Origin: Tubulanus polymorphus
Taxonomy: Eukaryota > Nemertea > Palaeonemertea > Tubulaniformes > Tubulanidae
Assembly (NCBI RefSeq): GCF_964204645.1
Contig: NC_134029.1
Span: forward strand, 19,424,450 to 19,488,449
DNA length: 64,000 nucleotides
Reading direction: 5' to 3'
The translations under genes and the position numbers were made by a program. This document shows, in pieces, positions 1,948 through 45,500 of this stretch. The notes beneath the pieces were generated by a model. It had not been told where the DNA came from and searched no databases. It worked only from the letters and a program-made list of their open reading frames with translations. The first letter of the stretch is position 1. Each line of letters starts with the position of its first letter.

Positions 1948-2925
1948 TCAAACGAGTTTCTTCAGGGTGTGGAGAAACTGTTTGTTTACTATACAATACA
2001 GAATGAAATTAACGCACGAATCTACGTCACCCGATATATGAGCTATATCAAACGCCACCTCCCAGATAACCGCATTCGGCAACGCGTAAGAGCGCACTTT
2101 CGAAAACGTTTCGGGCATTTCCAACAGAAGAAAAGTTATACTCATCGATATTACCATACGAGTGGCTTTAGAATCGCCTTTCAACGTTTGTTGCGAGCCG
2201 GTGCCCCCTAATTTCTTTCGTTGTCTAAATTTTACGCATAATGTCGCGATAAGGGCCGTGTTTACGATGAGAATTATCACGCTCGGAAATATCAATCTGA
2301 AAACGGGATCCAGGAGCTTGTTGCAAAGAAAATATATTTTCGGGTTCTTAGAAGCAATACGGTATTGTTGGCCGTAACAGGGATTCGTATAATCTTCTAT
2401 TTTAACGCTCAATGGAAAATATATAGACCACAAAAAGAAAGACAACGTCGCCACGGTGATGATACGGTTCATACGCTTTTTTGTCCACCATTGACTGGCT
2501 TTTAACGGGAATAGAACGGTCAGAAGTCGTTCTAACTGTATTAGAACTGTCAACCAGTTGCGTTGGTACATGAATCCGAACCGCAACACGCGAGCTCCGT
2601 AGGCGTACATTTTCGGGTAAATGTGGAATGGATCGATAAAAACGTTATCACCGTAATTTACGTAAAACAACAAATATCTCAGAGTATCGGCCAGAAAGTG
2701 ACTCAACAGTAAACTGATATCGGCAATCGCGAGGCATTTTAACAAGTGTATTGAAGGGTGTGACGATTTCAATCTGGTAAAAATAGCGATGATTAAAGAA
2801 TTCATAACCAATCCGGTGAGCATAATCTGAGGTAGTACGAATACGTTGATGTAAAATCGACCAGACCATTCGTCATACTGCTGGACGCAAGACTCTTCTC
2901 GGGTTAGGTTCCGTACTGCGACCAT
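1948..2925 (-). CDS. Rhodopsin-type (class A) G-protein-coupled receptor, divergent orphan
   Basis: One uninterrupted 325-residue frame with seven hydrophobic segments in GPCR order: TM1 about 25-52, TM2 63-90, TM3 110-140, TM4 153-175, TM5 205-232, TM6 254-275, TM7 290-315. An N-terminal NLT glycosylation sequon is at residues 6-8. TM3 ends in ERLLTV where most class A receptors have DRY. TM7 has CVNFILYC where NPxxY is usual, a form common in expanded invertebrate peptide-receptor-like families. TM6 lacks the usual CWxP. ECL2 has a cysteine (NPCYGQ), but I see no partner cysteine at the top of TM3. The protein would sit in the plasma membrane; the ligand is unknown. The first ATG after an upstream stop was taken as the start. 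A missing 5' exon is possible, and so is a lineage-specific chemoreceptor role. Confidence 0.8.
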   Translation of the reverse strand: MVAVRNLTREESCVQQYDEWSGRFYINVFVLPQIMLTGLVMNSLIIAIFTRLKSSHPSIHLLKCLAIADISLLLSHFLADTLRYLLFYVNYGDNVFIDPFHIYPKMYAYGARVLRFGFMYQRNWLTVLIQLERLLTVLFPLKASQWWTKKRMNRIITVATLSFFLWSIYFPLSVKIEDYTNPCYGQQYRIASKNPKIYFLCNKLLDPVFRLIFPSVIILIVNTALIATLCVKFRQRKKLGGTGSQQTLKGDSKATRMVISMSITFLLLEMPETFSKVRSYALPNAVIWEVAFDIAHISGDVDSCVNFILYCIVNKQFLHTLKKLV

Positions 2926-4080
2926 CTCGACTGTTTGTTGTTACCACGATAACGTCAGGATTTCCACGCTATTTGCGCAGCATTTATTCCCGCATTATTG
3001 GCCACACCGGGTGCATTCTTTCTAGTCTAACGGGCGTCGGCTGCCTGGACTCTCATAGTGGCTGCGATCATCCGAGATCGCGTCGAAAATATTCCGCCGC
3101 ACGTAAAAACAATCTCGACAATTCAGGCTCAACTTTCGTTAGATTGACGTTTACAAAGACCCGTTCAATAACGGTTAATTTCAGGCAGTTCTTTGCCGAA
3201 AGATCGACGAAAACGCTCGCGATTTATAAATGATACACCGAGAATGAAAGAATATTTTTCTTGCTCACAATCTTCGAACTGGCAGCCTTTCAAAGACTTA
3301 CTTGTTCAACGGGCTCAATTTTCCTCCATTAGAAGATCGATGAAGTTGCAATTTGATGATAGAACGATTGCATCCATTATCAGAACGGGTTACCTCGATC
3401 GATCGATGTGTGTTGCGTAAAAACTTAAAACTGCGATATTAACAGTTGAATAAGTGTATTCCTAGCCTTGTCATTTATTCGTGATGTACAAAGTTACTAA
3501 CTGGTTATGTTTTGTTATTGGGCAACATTCCACCTAGTAATTTTTTAAACTCTAAGCAAGTTGCTGTGATGGGAATTCAACGGGTTTGTTGGTATGGCTT
3601 ATGATTCTTTAATTGAATCAGAACCCATTCTTTCACTCATTATCTTGAATAGTCAGTACGCGTCTCGCTAAGGTGTAATCAGTTCAAACGCACGTCTGTA
3701 ACAGCTGCTTTACCAAATACATTTTACGATAAAAAAATTGTAAAAAAGTTTCTCGGCAGAAAGATGCCTAAGATAAAGTCAGCCCCGATAACGCCCACAT
3801 CGGCGCAGAACGATTTTGGCGGTATAGAGAGTACGGCGGTATATCGGGGTGTTTTACTATGTATTTGTATAGAGATGTACATTGAGAAAGTCTGACGGTA
3901 GGCGGGGGGGGGGGGGTGGCTGTGTATGGGAGGGCGGTATATAGGGGGTTGATCGTATATACTAACCTGCCGAGTTCTGGGTGTTAAATATTTGGGTGGG
4001 ACTACAGGTAGTCATCGGATTCCGAGATGATTCAACTTGACAGGATTCTAAATTGATATTAGTTAAGAATATGCTTAAAG
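2926..4080. other. Intergenic, probable 5' flank of the GPCR gene
   Basis: No coding exon recognised. It holds a G homopolymer at about 3904-3916 in a locally G-rich stretch (3900-3950). No TATA box or other promoter element could be placed with confidence. Confidence 0.5.
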
Positions 4081-7324: not shown

Positions 7325-7434
7325 GTAAGGAACCATTGAAAATACAATTTAACTTATTGTTAGGGCTTTGGCCTTCAATTAAAGTTATTGTTTCGGAATT
7401 TGAACACTTCCGATTGTATAGCCATTAAGTCCGA

Positions 7435-8805
7435 CTCCCGACACACCGGCATACTGACATACCGGCACTCCCGACATACTAACACTCCCGACATTCCGAC
7501 ACTCGCGACATACCGACACACCGGCACTCCCGGCAACCGGCACTGACGACATACCAGCACTCCCGACATACCGACACTCCCGGCACTCCCGTTATACCGG
7601 CCACATCGGCACTCTCGACACACTCGACACTCCCGACATACCGACACACTGGCCTTCCCGACACTACGGCACTCACGACACTACGGCACTCCCGACACTC
7701 TGACACACCGGCACTCTCGACACTCCCGACACTCCCGACATACTGGTCTTGCCGACACACCTGACACACCGCCACTCCCGACATACCGGTATTCCCGACA
7801 CACCGCCACTCACGACATTCCGACACTCCGGCAATCCGGCACTCCCCACATACCGACACTCCGGCACTCCCGACACACCGGCTCTCCCGACATACCAGCA
7901 CTCCCCACACTCCCGACACACTGGCCTCCCCACACACCGGCACTCCCGACATACCCGGCACTCTCGACACTCCCGACACTCTCGACACTCCCGACACTCT
8001 CGACACTCCCGACACACCGGCACTCCCGACGCTCCCGATATACAGGCACTCCCCATATACAGACACACCGCCACTACCGACACACCGGCACTCCCGACAT
8101 TCCGACACTCCCGGCACACCGGCACTCACGACATTACGACGCTCCGACGCTCCGCCGCTCCCGACACTCCGACACACCGCCGCTCCCGACACACCGGCAC
8201 TCACGACATTACGACGCTCCGCCGCTCCCGACACTCCGACACACCGCCACTCCCGCCGCTCCCGACACTCCCGACACACCGGCACTCACGACATTACGAC
8301 ACTCCCGACACACCCGACACACCGGTACTCACGACATTACGACACTCCCGACACACCGGCACTCCCGACACATAGGACACATCGGCACTCACGACATTAC
8401 GACACTCCCGACACACCCGACACACCGGTACTCACGACATTATGACACTCCCGACACACCGCCGTTCCCGACACACCGGCACTCACGACATTACGACACT
8501 CCCGACATACTGGTCTTTCCGACACTCCCGCCACACTGGTCTTGCCGACATTCCGGCACTCACGACATTACGACACTCCCGACACACCGGCACTCCCGAC
8601 ACACCGCCACTCCCGACACACCGCCACTCCCGACATTCCCGACACACCGGCACTCCCGACACACACGACACTCCCGACACACACGACACACACGACACTC
8701 CCGACATACAGGTACTCCCGACACACCAACACTCCCGACACACCGGCAATCCGGCACTCACGACATACCGACACTCCCGACACACCAACACTCCCGACAT
8801 ATCCA
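7435..8805. repeat. Minisatellite, 17-bp unit built from 9-bp and 8-bp modules
   Basis: About 1.37 kb of repeats of CACTCCCGACACACCGG and variants (CACTCACGACATTACGA, CACTCTCGA and others). The modules CACTCCCGA (9 bp) and CACACCGG (8 bp) alternate irregularly. The basic unit contains no stop trinucleotide on either strand and 17 is not a multiple of 3, so long spurious open frames appear in several frames on both strands. It is far more GC-rich than its flanks. The right edge abuts copy 2 of the exon-like repeat. Confidence 0.95.
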
Positions 8806-14453: not shown

Positions 14454-17400
14454 ATGGATGATAAAGAAAGTCAAGAGGATGAACTAATTGCTTTAGCCAG
14501 CATTTATGATGACGAATCCTTTTGCGTGTCCAAAGATGATGGCGATGCTGCTGGTGGATATTTCTCTGCCTGTTTGGAACTTCCAACTCCATTCTATATA
14601 AAGTTAGATAGCGACCAAGGTAAGCGTAATATTGAAAGTCTCATATGAAGTGAACTAAGATGAAGAATCCTTGGTTTATTTGCTGTTTGGCATGATTTTT
14701 TTCTAATTACAGAAAGTAAGGAAGGCGAAAAATCCGAAATTTCACACGAAGTGCAGTATTTGCCACCGATACAACTGAATTTTCAGTTTCCTGCTGAATA
14801 CCCATCTCGAAGTCCCCCGCAATTTACTCTATCTTGTAAATGGTTGTCCTTGAATCAGGTAACAGGGATACTGTTAACCCTTTCGGTGCGTATACACCGC
14901 AGTGCGGTGTATGAATCGGTGGCGGATTTTGCTAGTACAACGTATTGCGGTGTATTGGTGTAATCAGTAATTAGTTTTTATCTCTATTGAAAGATGGCAG
15001 CACCTGTCAAACATAGTGAAATATTAGTTACTAACGATACACCATGTCGCTGTGTAGACGCACTATAGTGGTATTCCCGTTATTCAACACACTAGGGCGG
15101 AATTTTTCAAAATTTTTAAATTATCTCCAGCACAATAGGGTATTGATTAGTCAGAACTGAAAGGGTCTTAAGCAGAGTATACTATGCATATGAATGTGAT
15201 TGAATCTCTATAGCTTGTGGGTAGTAGCACTTGAATTCCTGCAGGCAAGATACAATACAAAGCCTATGAAACTTAACTTGCTGGTATTGCTCCAATTCTG
15301 TGAATGGTAAAATGATTATTAAGGCCGTTCATAAGAAATAGTTCTTATGTTATTTAGATTCAAACATCATTTAGAAAAATAAATCTATATATTTATATTA
15401 TCAACTGCGGGTTTCACGCATTAATTATCCTCCCAATGCTGGAACTCGATTCTGATGGTTTCTAGTTGACCCCCCAGTCATTTTCAGATAAATAGAACAG
15501 AGCAGCCTTCTTATAAAGGACTCTGATCTCGAATACAACTATTTATCGGATATAACAAATATAGAATTTCATCCCAACGAAGATGATTTGATTAATTCCA
15601 TACTGGATATTACTAACTATCGGTTATAACGAACATATTCCAGTGTATACAAAATTCAATCTTGTGTCGTTTCAGTTGACGAAACTTTGCCAGAAACTGG
15701 ACGAGATCTGGGACGAGAACAAAGGTGAAGTGATATTATTCCTGTGGACGAATCTCCTGAAAAACGAATCGATCGAAATATTGGATATAACGAGTCCGCT
15801 GAATCTGAACAACGCGTGCGACAAAACTCGAAAAAACTCTCGGGATAAAACGAACTCGACGACTAGCGGCATCGCGAATGCCGACGAGATCATACCCGAT
15901 AGTCGCGCGATTCAGGATATCGGTTGCCACGCGTATCTTTTACCGACGATCTTGGAATACAATAAACAGCGACGGCGCGCGGTCTTCGATAAGACGTTGT
16001 TCACGTGCGACGTTTGTTTCGCCGAGAAGTTCGGTTCGCTGTGTCTGCAGTTTGCCGACTGCGAACACGTTTTCTGCGATGACTGCATGAAGGGATTCTT
16101 CGAAGTTCAGATCAACGAAGGAAACGTGAAAGCGCTGACGTGTCCACATGATAAATGTGAAACCCAGGCGCTTCCATGGCAGGTGCGTATCCGGACGTTT
16201 TCGAATGTTTTCGCTCTGCTTCCTTTTTGTCAACCTCAATAATAAAGAAACCTATGCATTCCTGATTAGACTTAAGAAAATGATGATACCTCAATTTTCC
16301 TAATCGTCTGGGTCATTTTGTGAACTGCTATAAAATTTGTAATCATTTCCATGCAATTAAATGTGCTTGCAACTCCTTTATTAACCCACTTGGGACTTAA
16401 AGTCCCAGCGGGCTATTGCGTTCACTTTTCGTCCGTCCGTCCGTAGACGGAATCCAGTTGTTTTGGGAAGTTTTGAAGACGCTTCAGTGTAATGTCTTGA
16501 TATTTGGGTTACACATGTATCTACCCTAGACACATCTTCAGCCCAAAAACTGGCTTGATTTTTCGTATATATTCGAATCCCTCAAGGGCCCATCAGCATA
16601 AGAAAATTTTCAAGGACTCCACATTATTTTGATACCTAAGCATATTGTGTTACCATAATCAATTGGAAAGTTGTAGCCCATAGCATGTTATATGATTTTG
16701 GTGAGTTTCAAGGTCATTGGTTTTTGTATATGGCCACCCGGGGCGTTGAATAATACAATTACTTAGTATTTCTATATTATATTTGTACCTATGCATATTT
16801 TGTTACCACAATTAATTGCAAAGTTGTAGCTCATGACATCGTCTATGATTGTGGTGAGTTTTAAGGACATAATCAATTACAAATCGTAGCTGCTGACATG
16901 TTCTATGAATGTGGTGGGTTTCAAGGTCATTGGTTTTTGTATATGGTCACCAGGGGGTGTGGAGTATTGAAAATGTTAGATTGTTGAGCATTTGAAACCA
17001 CTTCCCAAGACAGTGGGCATGGTGTCCCTGGACGCCTAGTTTTTAGCTAAGTGCCCAGGACCCAGTTCCACAGTTCTGTGTCAAGATATGACTTAAAGAG
17101 TTAACTAGTTGAAAAAGAACTAATTTTAACTCATAGTTAACTCACATCTGAGGAACTGGAGCCAGAACTCCTTAAAACTTCAATTTTGAGAAATGGGCAA
17201 TTAGAAATTTTTGTCTTCTTTCAAGTTGTACAGTGGACAACCCCTAATCGATACAGTTGGAACCGACCTGGATGATTTCACCCTTATATCCAGGAATACT
17301 GATCTGTAGGGACCTCGAATGATGACAGAATCATTAATCTTTGAGGATATTCTTTTGTAGGTGAAACGACTGGTGAGCCCGGAACTATTTCAAAAGTACG

Positions 17401-24582: not shown

Positions 24583-25586
24583 ATGACCTCCACAGATGAC
24601 TTTCAAAAATTTGAAGCATTTTGTAAAAAGTATAATGTGCCGGAAGTAGCAGCAGACCTCAAGGAAGCCTTTATCGTGTTCCGTCAAATTGACAAAAACA
24701 AAGACGGAAGTCTAGACATGAAGGAAATCAAGAAGTTGGGATTAAGCGAAAAATCCAATGAAGTACGTTACGCATAAATGTTTACCATCAACTCAAAATC
24801 GAACTTGCTAACACTGTTAAGGCTATGCAAATATTACTTAACAAAATTACTTTGACTTCCATATAGGACTCATGAATTATCAAATAATATCAGTTTGTGA
24901 AATATTTATTGAATTTTGTGTAAATTTCAATCGAATCACGTCTAGCGACATTACATGTATGCACAAAATGGTTTTGATTGTCGAAATCTGATCGACTTCG
25001 GTTCGACAGCTTCTGTGAAAATTTCAACGAACGTCCTCTGTTTTCAGGAAATCATTGCAAAAGGCGGTCCTGATAGAAAGATTACTCTGGCGGAGCTCAT
25101 CAAGTTTATTTTCTTGTGAGTAGCTAGACCACACAAACTTTAAGCACGCCGCACACGGCATAACAAAAAAAATCGAAAACGTTTTTTTTTCACGAGGAAA
25201 AAATGTTTTTTTTCGGTGCCGTGTGAGGCGGGCTTTACTGATATATTACTGTTGGGAAGGGATTCTACCTTTATTTGAGATACACTGTGGTTATGTCAAT
25301 GTACATAAATAAATTGTTCTTACGATTTAGACCGAACGTAGAAGAAAAATGGCAGAAAATTTTCGATGAATTCAAAACGAACAATACAATCGGGCCAGAT
25401 GAGATGGAGGCATATCTTAAAAAGTGCGGATTTGAAAAGACTAATGTCAAGAGCGCTATTGAAGTCATCGAAACGTACGATACGAATGAAGACAAACGGC
25501 TTTCTTTTAATGAGTTTTTGAAATATATTACGCATGATTTTGACGCTCTCGTTGAAAAATTGTGGGACAGTACCTGTAAGAAATAA
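24583..25586 (+). CDS. Four-EF-hand calcium-binding protein (calmodulin-like)
   Basis: Exons 24583-24762, 25048-25115 and 25331-25586 join to 167 residues with GT/AG junctions. Loop 1 (DKNKDGSLDMKE, about residues 39-50) has all calcium ligands. Loop 2 (KGGPDRKITLAE) and loop 3 (KTNNTIGPDEME) lack the first aspartate and look non-binding. Loop 4 (DTNEDKRLSFNE) keeps D1, N3, D5 and E12 but has Lys in place of the Gly at position 6. The pattern of outer hands active and inner hands degenerate resembles invertebrate 16-20 kDa calcium-binding proteins more than calmodulin itself; the exact family is unknown. No signal peptide. The gene lies wholly inside the Penelope-bounded block, and intron 2 contains a short MITE. 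Confidence 0.88.
25143..25234. repeat. Small foldback MITE in EF-hand intron 2
   Basis: Outer arms CACGCCGCACACGGC and GCCGTGTGAGGCGGGC are inverted around a poly-A/poly-T-rich centre. About 92 bp. Confidence 0.65.
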
Positions 25587-30523: not shown

Positions 30524-33500
30524 ATGAAGGTATTTTACGAAATATATGAAATTACCGATTATATTGAAATTGCAGCGAAAAATGGAAGCTTTTTGATGCG
30601 TTTTTCACCGTTTAATTACGTGTTAAATATAGAAAAATACCGTTTTCGTTAGTCTGTGTTCAGTCCTTTCGTCGTGTAATTTCTGTGACTAACGTTGTCG
30701 TTATTTTTTCGCAGCGTGTGTTCACAATTCCTGATAAAACCCACGGTTTGGGAGCGATAGTGTACGCCTGGCAGAAAACCCACGGCAACTATTTAGCAAC
30801 AACAGGGTAAGAAAACCAAATGCTGATGAGAAAAAAAGGCTGAATTGAAACTGACTGAAAAAGTGAGATGCATAAGCTTACCCCAACCAAGCCTTCTACT
30901 ACTCTAGCTATTTGTCTATTCTGTGATATTTTTACTTAAAACATCCCTTTTTGGCTCTGTACATTTTTTCAATGATATTCATAAATTACATCACGATGGA
31001 CGCCAACAACCCATCTCTCAATCAGTAAATGTTATTTACGGCTATGCGGAACAGTCCTATACAGACTTCTTTCTGAACTTATTTTTCCTGTCAAATATAG
31101 GTCCGATCATGTGGTTCGTATTTACGATCGTCACGGTGAAATTCACGATGAGATAAGTTTACCTGGGTACGTATTCGCTCAATGCCCCATAACGAACCAT
31201 AAATAGGCTCAGTACATTGAGTGCAAAAGCATTCGATTACTTTTTCTAAGTGGTTTCTAATAGACCCGTCCAAACAATAATTTTGAACTTCAATAATGGA
31301 CATATTTCGAACGCAGAAAATTAGGGTTTAGTGTCGAGAGAGTAAGGGTTTGGGTAAGATAAGGCATTGGGTAAGTAAGGATTAGGCTATGATTAAAGGT
31401 TTAAAACTAGCATTGACTCTCTCTGTTAGTAAAGAGCACTAATCGAAATCGAAAGTTTCGTGGTCATTTCTTGGAATTTTCCTAGTACCGTACATTTGTG
31501 CAAGCACGTTGATTCAGACTGCTGGGTCTATCAGAATAGTCACTTCATCAATCTATTTCCTATAAAACTTCCATTTTAATTTCCATTTATTTCTAATAAA
31601 AGCATCGAAATCGTCCTCGTATATTTTCTAGTATGTGTTCCGGTCTAGGATGGGACAAAGACGGAGACACGTTGGCGATAATCAACGATAAAACCGGGGT
31701 CATATTTCTGTGGAGCGCTAATGCCCGGAAAACAACCCAACTAGACAGTGGATTGAGGTAGGTTGAAATGGTGTGCCATACTTGCCTTAGCTTGCCTTTT
31801 CATGGTTCCCACAGTACTCGCCTTAGCTCTCCTAAAACATGTGTCCCACAGTACTAGAAAATGGGGGGAAACCTTTAATAGGCCTATTTGTAAATTTCAC
31901 TTGTTTGACTTTCCACCAATCTGGGAAATATTTGAGAAATTCATTTAGAACTTCACAGTACATCCTTCACAGCCTATCCTAATGGCAAATAAGCAATTCA
32001 ATTGAAAATCGCCTTTATCAACCGGTCATCACTCAAATGTTGATGTCCCTGTAGTATGATGGTTTTTCGTTTTCACAAAGGTAGCGTTTCTATGGGAAAA
32101 TTAAAAATCACCCATGAAACACTTGTGAATTTTGAATTCATGTTTCTGTGGAAACAATGTTACAACCTACAAGTATGACCTGAATATACGCACCATTTTT
32201 TGTAGGCCTATATCTGATTTTTAAGGAAGTCTATAAATTCTCCTGAAATTACCAGGACATGCCCCTTTCTGCAATGGAGATATTCATAGATGCATGTTAA
32301 GATGTTCTTTTATTTCCACAGGGATTCGTTGACGTACTTAATCTGGTCGAAAGTTGGGCCCCAGCTCGCCATAGGTACAGCTAAGGGCAACCTTCTGATA
32401 TACAATCATCAAACATCCAGGTAATGCAGCACATTTTGTTAATCCAACCTTGCATACATAACTTGAAAAGATAAAGTTATTGCTGGAGATCTTTTTCACA
32501 TATAAAAACATTTTTTTTCTAAATGAAAATTTGGAAAAGGTTACTTCAATGACTTGAACAGAAAACTACACTATACTCCCTTTTTTTCGGTTGTGTTGGG
32601 ACTATGAAAATTCTGTTTCTTGAGTTGAGAATCAGTTTTGCAAATAAATTCTAGTTCAATTCACTGGCCTGAGTGGTTTACCCCACAAGGGATTTTGAAT
32701 CAGGGATTGTATTTTTGAAGAAACAGTAGAATTCATTAAGATAAAAACCCACTATTTACAGATTAAAAGAATTTTAAAACCAAGAATTTATTTATTCAAA
32801 CAATCTAAAATATATAAAATACACGACGTTTCGATCTCACCCTAGAGATCATCGCCAGGTGTCCGTTGATCTGACGATGATCTTTAGGGTGAGATCGAAA
32901 CGTTGTGTATTTTATATAGTTTAGATTGTTCAAATAAATAAATTCTCAGTTTTAAAATTCTTTTAACCCTTTCAGTGCTGACTAATTAATACCCTATAGT
33001 GCTGGAGATAATTTGAAAATTCTAAAAAATTCCACCCTAGTGTGTTGAACAACGGGAATACCACTATAGTGCGTCTACACTGCGGTGCGGTGTATCGTTA
33101 GTTACTAGTATTTCACTATGTTTGACACGTGCTGCCATTTTCCAAGACAGTTAATTACTAATTACATCAATACACCGCAGTGCGGTGTACTAGCAAAATC
33201 TATCACTGATTTATACACCACACTGGGGTGTAGACGCACTGAAAGGGTTAATCTGTAGATAGTGGGTTTTTATCTTATTATCAGTTCACCACGTTTTAGT
33301 GTGGTTATCATTCTAGTAGAATTCATAATAAACAATAAACTAAATTACTTCTCTCCTTTACGCAGGAAAGTTCCTATTCTGGGTAAACACACAAAGAAAA
33401 TCACGTGCGGAGCGTGGAGTATGCAGAATTTGTTGGCCCTCGGAAGCGAGGATCGTACGATTACGATCAGCAACGCGGAAGGCGATACGATACGCACGAC

Positions 33501-36500: not shown

Positions 36501-39500
36501 AAAGGATGAATACAAATTTACTGTAAAGTTGCGTACTAAAGTTGAGGTGTTATTTTCGAAGAATTTGTTGGTATCCCTTGAATACATTGACGCAGATACA
36601 TAGATATCTGAGGATCCCTAGAAACTTTCGTTTTGAATATAATCTTCTTTTCGAATATGTTTCAGCATAAAAATCCACGATTTGTCCGAAATGAAGGACA
36701 TGTACGCGATCATCTACCTGGACGACGAACGCAGTCTGGATAAGATATCGTGGACAGATGACGGACAGCTGATGGCTTTATCGACTCAGAAAGGCTCGCT
36801 TCACGTTTACCTCACTAAACTACCAATACTGGGAGCTGCTATACAAACTAGGATCGCTTATCTAACGTCGTTGCTGGAAGTCACCATTCAAGATGATGTT
36901 AACCGGGTATGTTTTACGTTCTTTTGAAATGAATTTGAAAATTTTCGCGAATAAACCCGACAGCCTACAAAATGGATACATTTTTAGCCTAAGAGATTTA
37001 CAGGCGCTTTGGTTGACTGCCCATTTTTCAGTGGACAAGATGCTATTAGGTCACGGTAACTAGTTCTTTCACAGTGGTACGAGTTCAAATTAAACAGCAA
37101 TCAAAACAATTGAACATGAACTTATTCAGGGTTTAGCTGAATCTAAATCGTGACTGTAGAACTGGGTGAAATTCAAATTGTTGGCAGGGGAGATGGAATT
37201 TGTTGTTTGTAGCCTTAAGAATGAAATAGACTCACTCAGGGCGACTACAATTCTGGAAAATGCGGTGAATTGATTTCTCTCATGGAAAAGACGCGGAATT
37301 TGATAAATTTTGATAAATATCTGGAGAACGTAGGGAAATGGCGTTTATGTTGCACTCACGTTTTCCCCGCGAATTGTGTTATGCTCCCGAACTATGTTCT
37401 CCATCTCTGTCAACCGTACATCACAACTCTAAAAACTTCATTTGATGTAGTTATGAATTCCTATGAAAATATATCACCTGAAACTGGAAATATTTACCCG
37501 GCCAGTTTACTACTGGATCATGGTATGAACTTTTTGGTTCATCAGGACACGGGGAAAGTTCTGTTTTTAACTGGGGGAAAACCTGGAGAATTCGTGGAAG
37601 CGGAATTCAATTCGCGCTTTTGTTATTTTCCAGGGAGCATCGACGGTACTGGCTATCGAGGTGGAGCCGTCGTTTATCGGTCTCGGTCCGTATCATCTCG
37701 CGGTCGGCATGAATAACAGAGCCTGGTTCTACATGCTGAGTGAAGGTGGTAAGTAAATACGCTGAAATAAATACTGACTGCTATTAGAATCTGTTTGTCT
37801 GTATTATCTACACAAGAACTGGACTGAACTCAGACCCACGATAAGAGAAAATATAGCTAAAAAGCTTGTCTATAAATTCTGAATTAATTTTGGTCTTCGG
37901 TGATTTGGCTGAAAATGGCTGAAAATGATTCCTTGGTTTACAATATACAAGCTTTATGATGAAAGGCTGCTTTATTGCATATGACTGATAGATCTGAGAA
38001 ATATGTTGCAGGACCAGAGAAGATGAAAGATAGAGAATACCTCGGTACTGTGCAGTCTATTAAACTGAATGCTGATTACGCTGGCGTCAGTTTCGAAGGA
38101 AAAGTTCAACTCCACATGGTAATTATTATAAGTTAATAGGCCTATATCCCGTATCAGCATGCAGCCTTATTCACAAAAGTTTTCTAGCTTAGTTGGTTGC
38201 TATGTAGTTAAACTATAGGTAGTGAGGAACTAAGCTAGAAATGGGCTTTATGAATACAGCTGCTGGTCTCCACTTGGGTCACTTACCAGCCAGCCTTTAA
38301 CTTAAGTCTAGATGGAACTCGTGAAAAAGCTGTCATTATTCGGCAGTTCATGTCGCAATCCGAACCTTGTCCTACTAATACATACTGATAGGTGGCATTC
38401 TCCTGGGGCCTGTTCTTTCGTCATGGCTTGGGCTTAAGAACAGTCTAAAACCATCTTAGTTCGAATATGGAACCGGCCTCTGGTTGACTCCTAAAGTTGA
38501 AAATTTGTAGGTTTGGTAGTGGCAATTTGAATTGAATTGTACGCTTAACGAGGGAAAGGTATATTCGATATGGTTTAGATAATGTTTTGGAAGTGTTCTG
38601 TTGTTGATATTATGAAAATCTATTGTTTCAGATTGAAGGTGAATCGATGGGTACAGATGAGAGCAGAGAGACGAGACTATTCCCTGATGATAGTAGCAGT
38701 GGACGTATCACTTGTCACGACGTCACCCCAGAATTTCTCATTTACGGAACCGATGTAAGTGAACTTACTCGAATAATGACATTGACAGAGCATTTCTTTA
38801 TCAATGCATGATTCAATGAAAAATGAATAAATTGTAACATTTTAAACGTAGAAAATTTCTCTGATTCACTCAGCCAATTTTATGAAATCACTTGGAAAAT
38901 TAGAGAAAACTCAGGACCCAGTTCCACAGTTCTGAGTTAGAGTTAAATCTGAGTTAAAACTAGTTCATTTTCAATTAGTAAACTCTGAGTTAAATCTTAA
39001 CTCAGAACTGTGGAACTGGCTCCTGGGGATTTGTAAATGGGCGGAAAGTGGCCACCCTGCGCAGCCTCTAAAATCCTTGGAAAGAAAACCATGAAGATTT
39101 CTTTGATGAGGTTGCATCGTATAGGCCCATACAGAATTGTACTTTGTTTCTTTTACTTTTAAAGTACGTGTACAACGTACTGAATATTTTGTAAAAACTC
39201 GTTATGAATCGTTTCGGTTTTACAGACGGGAGGTATCCATTACTTCTATATCGAAGACTGGCAGTTCGTGAATGAGTTTCGTCACGTAGTCGGCATCCGC
39301 AAACTGTTTCCCGACCCGAGCGGAACTCGACTCGTGTTCATCGACGATAAAAGCGATGGTTACGTTTACAATCCGGTAAGTCTGGAACACAGCGGGTAGC
39401 AGGTGGTGAAAAATTGGAGAAATGCTCATCAGCGGGTATTGTTACCTGTGTTTTCATGCCTTCCCATTTTTACCGTGGGTGAACTTCGGTTTTCGTAGTT

Positions 39501-42500
39501 AGTCGACTAGTAGTCGGAGCTAGTGATCAAATGCACTTAAGTTTTGTCTAACACCATCTTCGAACGAGATATGAACTACAGCGTCTTCACAGTTTCTTAG
39601 TTCGTTATTTTCAGACTATAGTTCCGACTAACTGATATTCGGTTTCATTTAGTTCGCAAATAGTGTACTAACTCCGATAACCGAAGTTCGCCATGGGTGA
39701 ACTTTGGCAATCACCAGTCATCGACTATTAATGGATGAATTGAAAATAAATGTCAGTTAGTCCGAACTATAGTCCCCGAAGGTATCTCTGAAGTTTGCAC
39801 TCTCTGTAGTTTCCACGTAGTCTAAACATGGCAGACACAAAGTCTAGTGCATAAGAAATTGAAGGATAGAGATTCTTATATTCTATTAACTAGAAAAAAC
39901 CAAAGTTCACCTCCGTGCTAAAGAAGGTGTAACCCTTGGGATAGTTTCAGTGCCCAGTCCTCGGTTGATTATTCTCGTGGACGCGATAATTAAACAATTG
40001 AAAATAGATATTTGTAAACGTAATTCGTTTTTCATGAAATATTTTCTTCTGTTCGGTCGATGTAGGTAAACGACCAGATCATAGAAATCCCTAATTTCTC
40101 CTCGACAACGCACGGCGTTCTGTGGGAAAACTGGCTACCGGATAAGGTAAGAATTATCGTCGGGATTTTCGTCGGAGTGTATGTATTTATGTGTATATTG
40201 CGTGAGAGAAATGTCGTCAAATTTCTGAACGAATTGAAAGGATTCCTGTTCGTAATTATTATTTCAGAGGATATTCATATCGTACGACGACGATACGATC
40301 GTCACGTATTTGTTACATAAAGAATCGTATAAGGGTATGATTGAAAGACAATCGAACAGCCTCGATCGAACGTAGACAGCTGACTGACCTAGCACTTGGC
40401 GGCCCGGTTTAACGAAAGAGTTCATATTCAAATTTATCGGAAACTTTGTCTCGAACCCACGTTCGAATAACAGAAAAGTTATTCAAAACATTGATGAGTT
40501 AGAATTTCTTTTGAAAAAAATCTGAATATCCGAACATTAAAAACCATTTTCAAGGAGACACCTTTGGTTTACTTGCTGTGGGTTACTTAGTACAAACTTT
40601 TTTTAAGCGTAGATTTGTTCGTTAAACTATATCCGCCGAGAAACTCTTCAAATCAAGATCTCTCAGCTGTCTAGAGATAATGCTATTAACATTCCTTTTG
40701 TAGTACTTTATAACATTTAGTAAGCTTACAGTCAGTGGATTTATTTTGTCTAATATTTTGTGCCCTAAAAATAGCTTACGTTGTTGAGACCATTCCCGAA
40801 AAATATGGCTGCTAGAGACATAATCGCTAATCCAGTTGACATCGTACTAATTAGTGATTTTACAGAGGGATCATATAGAGGGATACAGCAGGGATTCGAA
40901 CCTGATGGCATCGCTAGACTCGGCCACGGCATATGAAACCCTGCCACAATAGACCGGGTGCGCAAGTTAGCCGCATTAAAACTCGCGACACCAATCAGAT
41001 TGCCCGTGGTATAATTGCCAAGGCATATTTCACGAAAAAACTATAAATGGAAAACCTGGGCTAAAATAAAACAGGATGTCTGATTGGCTGATAATGACAT
41101 CATCTAAGCTGCGCACTCGCGCTAGTGTGGCAGGGTTTGTACCATGGCGCGTCTCAATGCCATGAGGTTCGAGTGCCTGCCGGGCGAGGATGCATATAGA
41201 TAGGGAGCCATGTTTTTCTTGAGGGGTCTGCCCAGACTGGTTCATGCCGTCAGTAAGTAGCTTTATGTACCCAGGTTCCTCAATGTAAGCGCTAACTTTT
41301 TATCTACCGGTACTTGTAGAGATTTAAACATATTTTTCTTTATTTAAATCGACTCATACGATCTAAGAAAGACCCTTCGGCATCGAAACAAAATTTCATA
41401 CCTATTTATCCTACTGTGAAAAAGAAAGCCATATCATGCTGATTTACTCTTATGCCATCAGATGCATTTGACAAGACTTACAAATGCGCCAACCATTCCT
41501 GATTTCTTGGATTAGTTTTCAACTCGTTTCTGAGGTTGATAGTCCTGGATATACCGGTGAGGATACCGCAGGACGGCGATGATAGTATGTTGTCGCCAGA
41601 GCGGCACAACTTCTTATCAGTGCATTAAGTAAAAAAACATGTAGTTCAGTAACGGTTGACGGTTATTATTGTTCCAGATGCTCTTGAAATGCTTTTGAAA
41701 TTTAAAAATTTACCTTAGTAAGAGGGGCCATTGAGTCGTCTTTTCTTGACTAAGATATCTATTCGACACGCTTTTAAAAATTCTGGTAACATCCTTGATG
41801 AGGGCAAAGTGTTAGTTTGAGTTCTAACACGGCGTGGTGTGAATAATATATACGGTTCGATATTTAACAGCTCTGACACAAGCTTCTGTTCTCTCTCGTT
41901 TCATTATTCTAGGGCGTGTTCGTAGTGTTCAACGACGAAAAGATAACGTCCTACGTATACCTACGGGAAACAGTGTCTGGTATGCCCGAAACTTTCGTAC
42001 ACGTGCAGGCCGCGTATAACCTGCCGCCCTCGGTGGCTCTGGCCAGTTGTAAGTGTGGGAGGCGTATATACACTGTACTGGACACTGGGTTTTCCCGCGA
42101 TTGAGATTCTGCGTTTTTTTTCTGTTTTCGACGCGTTGTGCACACTCTCAAAATTCTAGTTACCTATAGTCGAATTCGACAATATTCTTATAACTTTAGC
42201 GAGATTTTTCATGATATTTTTGTTTTCTGCGTCACTTTTCAGCAGCAGCAGCAGCACAATATTATTTCAGTAGTGTGTTACATCATATATATACCTCCCA
42301 CACTCACACACCTCCACGCTTCCATTCTCATCGGAATGGGAGTTCTAAAACCTTAACTTAAGTTTCTATTCTATATGGTGGCTGATTCGGGCCATACTAA
42401 GAAACATTTTCTGTTCAGCTTGAGGCACGATAAAATAACTTTTACATTGGCCCAATTCTAGAGTTTTGAATTTTTCGTGCGAGAGAATAAAAGACTTTGA

Positions 42501-45500
42501 ACTTTTGCGCAAGAAAACCAGATTTTTTTAAAATTCTCAAGCAAAAGCCAAAATGTTTTGTTGAATTCTCGCACGAGAAAACCAAAAAATGGGCCAATGT
42601 GAAAAACTTTTTTTTCATGCCTCAGTTCAGAAAAATGTCTTAAGTATGGCCCAAATCAGCCACCATAATTCTAACTATTTTTCGCCTAATTTTTCATTGC
42701 GTTGTTTGTAGAAATATTTCATAGAATTCGATCATTGCCGTTTAAAAATTTTCTCGAAATCGTTTATTTACGGGTTTATTATGGCCATTTATGATGGAAT
42801 CTTTCCTTATTCGTACATATAGGTTCTAAAGTCGTTCAAGTCGGAAACACGAAACTGCCGTACGGTCATGTACCGATCATGCTGTACAACGGAGAGGTTA
42901 CTCTTCAAACTCAGAGCGGCAAAGTCCAAACTCTGGTCCTTTCAACTCACGATTTCGAAGGGAAGCCTTTGGATCAGTCACCGGCTGAAGTACGTATCGA
43001 ATGAATGTTCGAAGTGTCCTTAGATGAGGCTTCCTTAGTATATTCTATTCATTACTCAGTGATTTATCTGTTGTTTTTTTTTCAGCTCAAAGATGCTCTT
43101 GAAAAGTGTTTAGCTTTAAGAAGGTAATGTCTGATTTTTAAAATGCATATCACGATTGATAAAACACTATTTGTTGAGACGATTATGTAAAGAGAATACC
43201 ACAACAATAACGAAAAAAGTCCGAAAAATGTAACTGGAGCTTTTTAGTAGTTTACTATTTACTATTCTAATAGTCATCTTCAGGAATACTGAATGAATAA
43301 AAATATATAGAATATATTATCAAAATGCTACAATCTTGAAATGTTTGTTGCTGTAGTAATTTTGTTCTGAAAAGCTCCTTAACCCAGTTCCGCAGTTCTG
43401 AGTTAAGATTTGACTCAGAATTAAATCATTGAAAATGAACTGATTTCAACTCAGAGTTAACTCTTTTAACTCGCAACTGTGGAACTGGGTCCATCAGTTC
43501 ACTAAACTATAGGTTTTTGTCTAGATTACTTTTTACTGTTTCGCAGGTTTAAAGATGCGTGGACGTATTGCGACCTGCTTTGTAAGAGGGAGCATTGGCT
43601 CGAGTTGGGAAGAGTCGCTTTAGAGAATTTGGAAATTGACATGGGTACGAAGTGCTTATTTTGCGTGTCAAAATGAAATTTTTGAAAAATACGATCTGCA
43701 AATATTATATCCACGAAAACTTAATCATTTTACAGCGATCAAGGTGTATAGACATATCGCTGATGCCGGAATGGTGATGTCTTTACAAAAAATCAAAGTA
43801 CGTGCTTGAAATGAAACAGTCATAGACAATATAATGTCCTTGTCGAGGTACTCAAGGTATTGATATTCATAATTTGCTTTCTTTATCATTACAGAATACA
43901 GAAGATCGAAATTTGCTAGCCGGCTATATCGCGATGTTCATGGAAGATTTCAGTCTCGCGCAAGATTTGTTTTTGGCCTCGAGTTTCCCGAGCGCGGCAT
44001 TGGAAGTACGTTTCAGCTAGAACTTGATAAAGCCCAGTTCGTAGAAATAATAAGTATATAAGATACCGAGAAATAAGAAAAAAGATTCCCCCAATTTGAA
44101 TTGACTTACCAAAGCTGGTACATGTATATGCCGGTTTATCATTAGATTTGTATCATGTACATTTTCTATATTGGTATATCAGTCCTCTGCTAGTAAAGAC
44201 ATTTCAAGTTATACATCACACATATTTTTTCATCAAAGAGATGTTGTTATCTAGTGAAGAGATCTACCGGTAGTTAGTCGACTAGAATTTACGCTGAAGT
44301 AGGATTTAATTCTAACTCATTTACAATAGATATCACTCAATTCAAACCTTTTTAGGACTGTGATAAGCAATATCCCCGAGTTGGATAGTGTATATTTCAT
44401 ATATTGGTCATATTTTGAAGAATATTTTGAGTTGAAAATTTATCTGAATCTGACTTTGCGGCGGAGTCTACCATATATAGTATTGTTGATAGTATTGTTA
44501 AGCTTAAAAGTGATACGAATTGAACTGTTTACTGTTAAATCTGTTGAATTATATTCTTTCATCAAATTCCAAAGTTGAGATCTGAGTTACGCATTTCTGC
44601 TTACGGTATATTTACATATGTTTACAGTTATGAAAATATTACTCCATTTTTTAGATGCGACGAGATCTGTTGCATTGGGACGAGGCGTTGAAACTGGCTA
44701 AAGCCCTCGCGCCCGAGCAGATTCCGTTCATATCGAAGGAATACGCCCAGCAGCTGGAATTCACCGGCGATCACATTAACGCGTTGGCGCACTACGAAAA
44801 GGGTATTACGAAAGCTGATCAGCATCGGGATCACGACGAGATCTGCGCGGCCGGCGTGGCGCGTGAATCCATCCGAATGGGCGATATTCGCAGGTAATTT
44901 AGCTACCATTACTACAACAAAATTTCCAAGTGATGATAAAAGTGATGGTTATGGTGTTCAGGCCTGTATGTACGTAGGAACAAACTTTTAAAAGTTGATT
45001 GTAAAACGCCCCTCGACTCTTGGTGATTATACCCCCAATACCCCTCGAATACCTGTCAAATTTGAAAATTATGGTCCTGTAGGTCCTGTATTATTGCCCC
45101 CCCCCCCCCAGCCTCAAAAATCAATTTTCTACTGGGTGAAGAGAGGGATTGTGGATCTTGGTCAGGGAGAAAGGGTTTGAACCCACAACTTAACATCCCA
45201 GAGTTAAACGCTGTCACCACTCTCCAAACTGTTGAAGACCCTACTAAGCTGAACGCAGATTGGTAACTTATTGTCCAATTAACACTTGTCCTAAACCAAA
45301 AATTTGAATGTTTGATATATTTTCTTTCTTAAGGGGTGTTGGTATGGCTTTGAAAATGCCGAGTAAAATATTGAAGAAAGAATGCGCAGCAATACTTGAA
45401 AATATGAAGGTATAAGTCGGGGCTAGAGTTCATTAAGAGGGCTTTACTTGATAAAGTGAATTAGAAATTACGTTATTGTTTGTAGCAATGGACAGAGGCG

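Follow-up and report, generated by a model that had tools for sequence, protein, structure and literature searches.

A candidate pair of mutually exclusive, tandem-duplicated exons in the wdr19 (IFT144) gene of the nemertean Tubulanus polymorphus

Exon 15 of the wdr19 gene of Tubulanus polymorphus very probably exists as a tandem-duplicated, mutually exclusive pair, 15a and 15b, giving two full-length isoforms of IFT144, with the wrong exon combinations lost by decay. Judging from the DNA, two forms of IFT144 are probably available to the animal. The gene was studied in a 64,000-nucleotide stretch of genomic DNA, hereafter the window. The modelled coding region and the exons concerned are the following:

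30709-50832, + strand: modelled wdr19/IFT144 coding region, with 33 coding exons (exon 15 counted once) and 1342 codons starting at the exon at 30709
40066-40146, + strand: exon 14, ending in phase 0, with a strong donor AAG/GTAAGA (score 10.5)
40268-40334, + strand: exon 15a, 67 nt, 22 residues plus G, donor AGG/GTATGA (score 7.3)
41913-41979, + strand: exon 15b, 67 nt, 22 residues plus G, donor CTG/GTATGC (score 4.5)
42823-42989, + strand: exon 16, entered in phase 1, with a weak acceptor (score 4.6)

The wdr19 gene in the window is complete or near-complete and occupies 30.7-50.8 kb of the + strand; its start codon probably belongs to a small exon upstream of the model. The gene was identified as WDR19/IFT144 by the PF15911 second beta-propeller, the alignment with WDR19 chains and full-length homology. 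Compared end to end, the protein is 66% identical to human WDR19, of which residues 544-692 are independently confirmed by PDB chains. Exon 16 is followed by 18 further coding exons. No further wdr19-like copies were found in the genome, where 15a and 15b are each single-copy, and no third copy of exon 15 was found in the window or the genome. No relatives turned up in viral and prokaryote collections, which were searched for stray animal DNA. A 163-codon open reading frame at 37225-37713 (+) spans a wdr19 intron and overlaps the next exon in a different frame; it has no Pfam match.

The initial annotation described 15a and 15b as two 67-nt exons, entered in phase 0 and left in phase 1, that both fit between exons 14 and 16 and break the frame if included together or skipped together. 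The coordinates, lengths, phases and AG/GT borders proved exact. Both arrangements are in frame, and 14-15a-16 and 14-15b-16 each remain open for 1342 codons. A transcript with 15a and 15b together meets a stop at codon 615, and one with neither at codon 633. The accompanying claim that exclusivity is enforced holds only for productive mRNA, in which a wrong combination brings a frameshift and a premature stop, whereas an RNA structure enforcing the choice was not found.

On the + strand of the window, 187 spacings of the type AG-67 nt-GT are present, and 53 of them are open in phase 0. Just two of these 53, 15a and 15b, have both splice sites scoring at least as high as the weaker ones of the pair. 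The cut-off was taken from the pair, so its passing is built in, and the informative part is that no third candidate appears. The splice sites of 15a and 15b are all AG/GT, with scores inside the gene's own range. The 15b donor is at the bottom of this range, tied with the weakest wdr19 donor, and a better donor is located 69 nt downstream. Codon-usage support for 15b is low: its score of -0.2, taken over 22 codons, comes close to the lowest twentieth among windows of real exons.

Both exons encode the same propeller stretch, in agreement with the first reading. For each, the match to human WDR19 (PDB chains) covers residues 571-592 with no gap and is part of a single unbroken alignment over residues 544-692. 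The segment sits in the second WDR19 propeller, in its last third as delimited by PF15911. The PF15911 match scores 301.1 bits with 15a, 305.5 bits with 15b and 314.9 bits with the human segment, against 263.5 bits with the segment masked and 265.3-270.4 bits with it shuffled. The contribution amounts to about 38 bits for 15a and about 42 bits for 15b, the fit of 15b being slightly better. Because these scores exceed the masked and shuffled ones, 15a and 15b look like constrained versions of a single propeller segment. When 22-codon windows of both strands were scored against the human-plus-15a sequence, the best two were 15a (182, partly self-scored) and 15b (96), and the next reached 49. In 100,000 trials, shuffled 15b never attained the score of the real 15b against human.

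The two versions share 5/22 residues, fewer than either shares with human (10/22 for 15a and 8/22 for 15b), which points to an old duplication. Their DNA identity is 31/66. The divergence by the NG86 method is dN 0.80 and dS 1.65, rough values from 22 codons with silent sites near saturation. In neutral simulations that carried 15a to 31/66 DNA identity, 34% of the sequences stayed open and 0/20,000 reached the score of 15b to human; the reverse simulation, starting from 15b, likewise left 0/20,000 with the observed human score. The near-saturated silent sites and the simulations together argue for an old duplication and for selection on both copies during most of the time since. The proposal that neither exon is a dead copy is thus upheld by the PF15911 fit of both and by the simulations in both directions. 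Register, profile score and simulation spoke against a chance open reading frame or a relic, and both were rejected. Identity to human is 45% for 15a and 36% for 15b, against a protein average of 66%; lower conservation of this kind would not be surprising in a specialised pair, 22 residues being too few for further conclusions.

Two further features adjoin exon 15b:

41980-42048, + strand: extension of 15b (long form 15bL), 69 nt in frame, giving a 136-nt exon that leaves in phase 1, with donor GTT/GTAAGT at 42049
42047-42077 and 42279-42308, + strand: arms of a potential RNA stem, the first holding donor 42049, with a duplex energy of about -32 kcal/mol

The donor at 42049 was overlooked in the initial annotation, and therefore there are perhaps three forms of the protein, 15bL being a possible third. 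The extension adds 23 residues (22 plus one at the junction). It could even be that 15b is used chiefly in the 136-nt form and that the 67-nt form is minor or absent. The 42049 donor, with its consensus GTAAGT, outscores the one at 41980 (6.4 vs 4.5), the extension is open and exceeds 99.5% of open intron windows in codon score, and the exit phase is identical to that of 15b. Against this, a G+C content of 62% may by itself account for the codon score; the extension is similar to no part of WDR19 and reduces the PF15911 match by 19 bits. Donor 41980 also stands at the exact codon position of the 15a donor, in a shared G/GTATG context, while donor 42049 is buried in the strong potential stem. 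On balance, we regard predominant use of the long form as unlikely. An origin of the extension by duplication of part of exon 16 was rejected, the alignment being no better than with shuffles. The stem itself is in the best 0.2% of sampled wdr19 intron pairs and lies outside the repeated element of its intron.

The preferred reading, with two exclusive 67-nt exons, suggests the following scheme. An ancient tandem duplication of exon 15 would have left IFT144 with two versions of one 22-residue stretch in its second beta-propeller. The spliceosome would then choose 15a or 15b as the partner of exon 14 and link the chosen exon on to exon 16, yielding the two full-length isoforms. Both exons would thus be spliced and the choice between them regulated. 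Double or zero inclusion would cause a frameshift and a stop in or soon after exon 16, and because this stop is far upstream of the last exon, nonsense-mediated decay should clear the wrong combinations. Regulated choice plus decay of the wrong products appears to be the simplest mechanism that fits the sequence. Nonsense-mediated decay is among the mechanisms given for exclusive splicing (PMC6071210).

The donors of 15a (7.3) and 15b (4.5) and the acceptor of exon 16 (4.6) are weak for wdr19, compared with 10.5 for the exon 14 donor. Weak splice sites are common in regulated exons. The intron between 15a and 15b is 1578 nt long, against 76 nt for the shortest intron of the wdr19 model, and exclusion is therefore probably not steric. 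Nor does it probably depend on U2/U12 incompatibility: by eye, the U12 donor sequence is absent from AAG/GTAAGA, AGG/GTATGA and CTG/GTATGC, and all splice sites of exons 14-16 look major-spliceosome. Likewise, exclusion probably does not proceed via a detectable docking/selector pair. In having a strong potential stem in the intron that follows 15b, wdr19 is similar to the docking/selector clusters of Dscam, 14-3-3zeta and Mhc (PMC6071210). In the one species studied, where a weak site could escape, the stem was found near 15b only and no partner near 15a rose beyond shuffled controls. Unlike those clusters, wdr19 has no second site near 15a that competes for either stem arm, and hence the defining competition was not found.

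The same observations could be read differently: the exons might be alternative without being strictly exclusive, and the double-inclusion or double-skip product might be a deliberate unproductive transcript that lowers IFT144 in some cells. Both wrong combinations do yield early stops, no enforcing RNA structure was found, and the intron lengths permit joint splicing. Taken alone, such a function leaves the retention of two divergent, constrained coding versions unexplained, and we consider it improbable. That 15b (or 15a) is a recently silenced relic exon, no longer spliced, is very improbable: the 15b donor is of the weakest class and the identity of 15b to human is lower, but its frame is open, its AG/GT borders are intact and its profile fit is better than that of 15a despite a dS of about 1.6 (NG86, rough, 22 codons), and a copy silent for most of the divergence would have decayed, which disfavours this reading.

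Tandem-duplicated exons that exclude each other are well known, and wdr19 is an unexpected and functionally interesting place for them. Known examples include human U2AF1 Ab/3, OGDH 4a/4b and the ion-channel and Mhc clusters (PMC5740500, PMC9741552, PMC5224494, PMC7969005). Like these, the wdr19 exons are adjacent, homologous and equal in length and phase, encode the same protein stretch, and are old and both constrained; in addition, neither has an in-frame stop and their splice sites look functional. Unlike these, the two versions of the candidate wdr19 pair share 5/22 residues only. The initial annotation knew of no described case, and none was found for WDR19, Oseg6 or dyf-2 in the main texts of the open-licence literature. 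Two surveys of mutually exclusive exons in human mention neither WDR19 nor cilia in their main texts. An automatic annotation of the pair may well exist. A WDR19 splice variant of cattle (PMC7252675) is similar in being a splicing change in the WD-repeat region, and has a sperm phenotype; it differs in that a cryptic donor removes three residues at 414-416 and no duplicated exon is involved.

By its pattern, the exchanged segment looks like a beta-hairpin, with F, D and Y common to both versions in the presumed strands and turn. The differences between 15a and 15b include the turn (DDDT vs NDEK). The IFT144 propellers are oriented towards the ciliary membrane in structures published earlier (PMC9870902). 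IFT144 residues 357-653, within which the exchanged segment (human 571-592) falls, are required for IFT122 binding, and disease mutations of core IFT-A concentrate on exposed WD40 surfaces (PMC9674347). The two forms may differ in a propeller surface for weak contacts, either with membrane cargo or with neighbouring subunits, and would perhaps be matched to cilium types. More speculatively, and in our estimate doubtfully, two IFT144 isoforms (three with donor 42049) could build distinct IFT-A complexes with differing membrane-facing propeller surfaces, so that the splicing choice would set which cargo different cilia load, for example motile, sensory and sperm cilia.

Core IFT-A subunits are usually viewed as a single fixed part common to all cilia. 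If the proposal is true, a constrained, splice-selected propeller segment means that the composition of the IFT-A train can vary within one animal. The 15a/15b pair offers a direct test of whether splicing can set cargo or train specificity.

The introns on both sides of 15b each contain a repeated element:

40885-41192, + strand: multi-copy MITE-like repeat with terminal inverted repeats, in the 15a-15b intron
42374-42667, + strand: multi-copy fold-back MITE-like repeat, in the 15b-16 intron, with many partial genome copies

The element at 40885-41192 has 1824 first-look candidates; some 40 copies on many contigs were scored, with identities of roughly 79-84%.

Several other features were observed in the window. 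At 1951-2940 (-), an apparently intronless seven-transmembrane receptor of the Pfam Srw/rhodopsin type has 330 open codons. The stretch 7434-8801 is taken up by a long, degenerate array whose CCGACACTC-like units measure 9 to 17 bp; several of its frames are open. The open reading frame at 15592-16239 has a weak, below-cut-off match to the RWD domain and a cysteine-rich end similar to that of RBR-type ubiquitin ligases, for example RNF14. An EF-hand coding stretch is located at 25242-25583, upstream of wdr19 and on the same strand. Searches for COX1 and for insect odorant receptors yielded no match. The telomere-like TTAGGG arrays of the genome make an arthropod host unlikely. Elsewhere in the genome (G000), exact TTAGG repeats were seen at two places only, neither a demonstrated contig end, as short arrays (C3:4313853-4313927 and C9:818422-818591). 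Arrays of TTAGGG are far commoner, and several of them are close to a contig start (C4, C6) or occupy the highest positions recorded on a contig (C1, C7).
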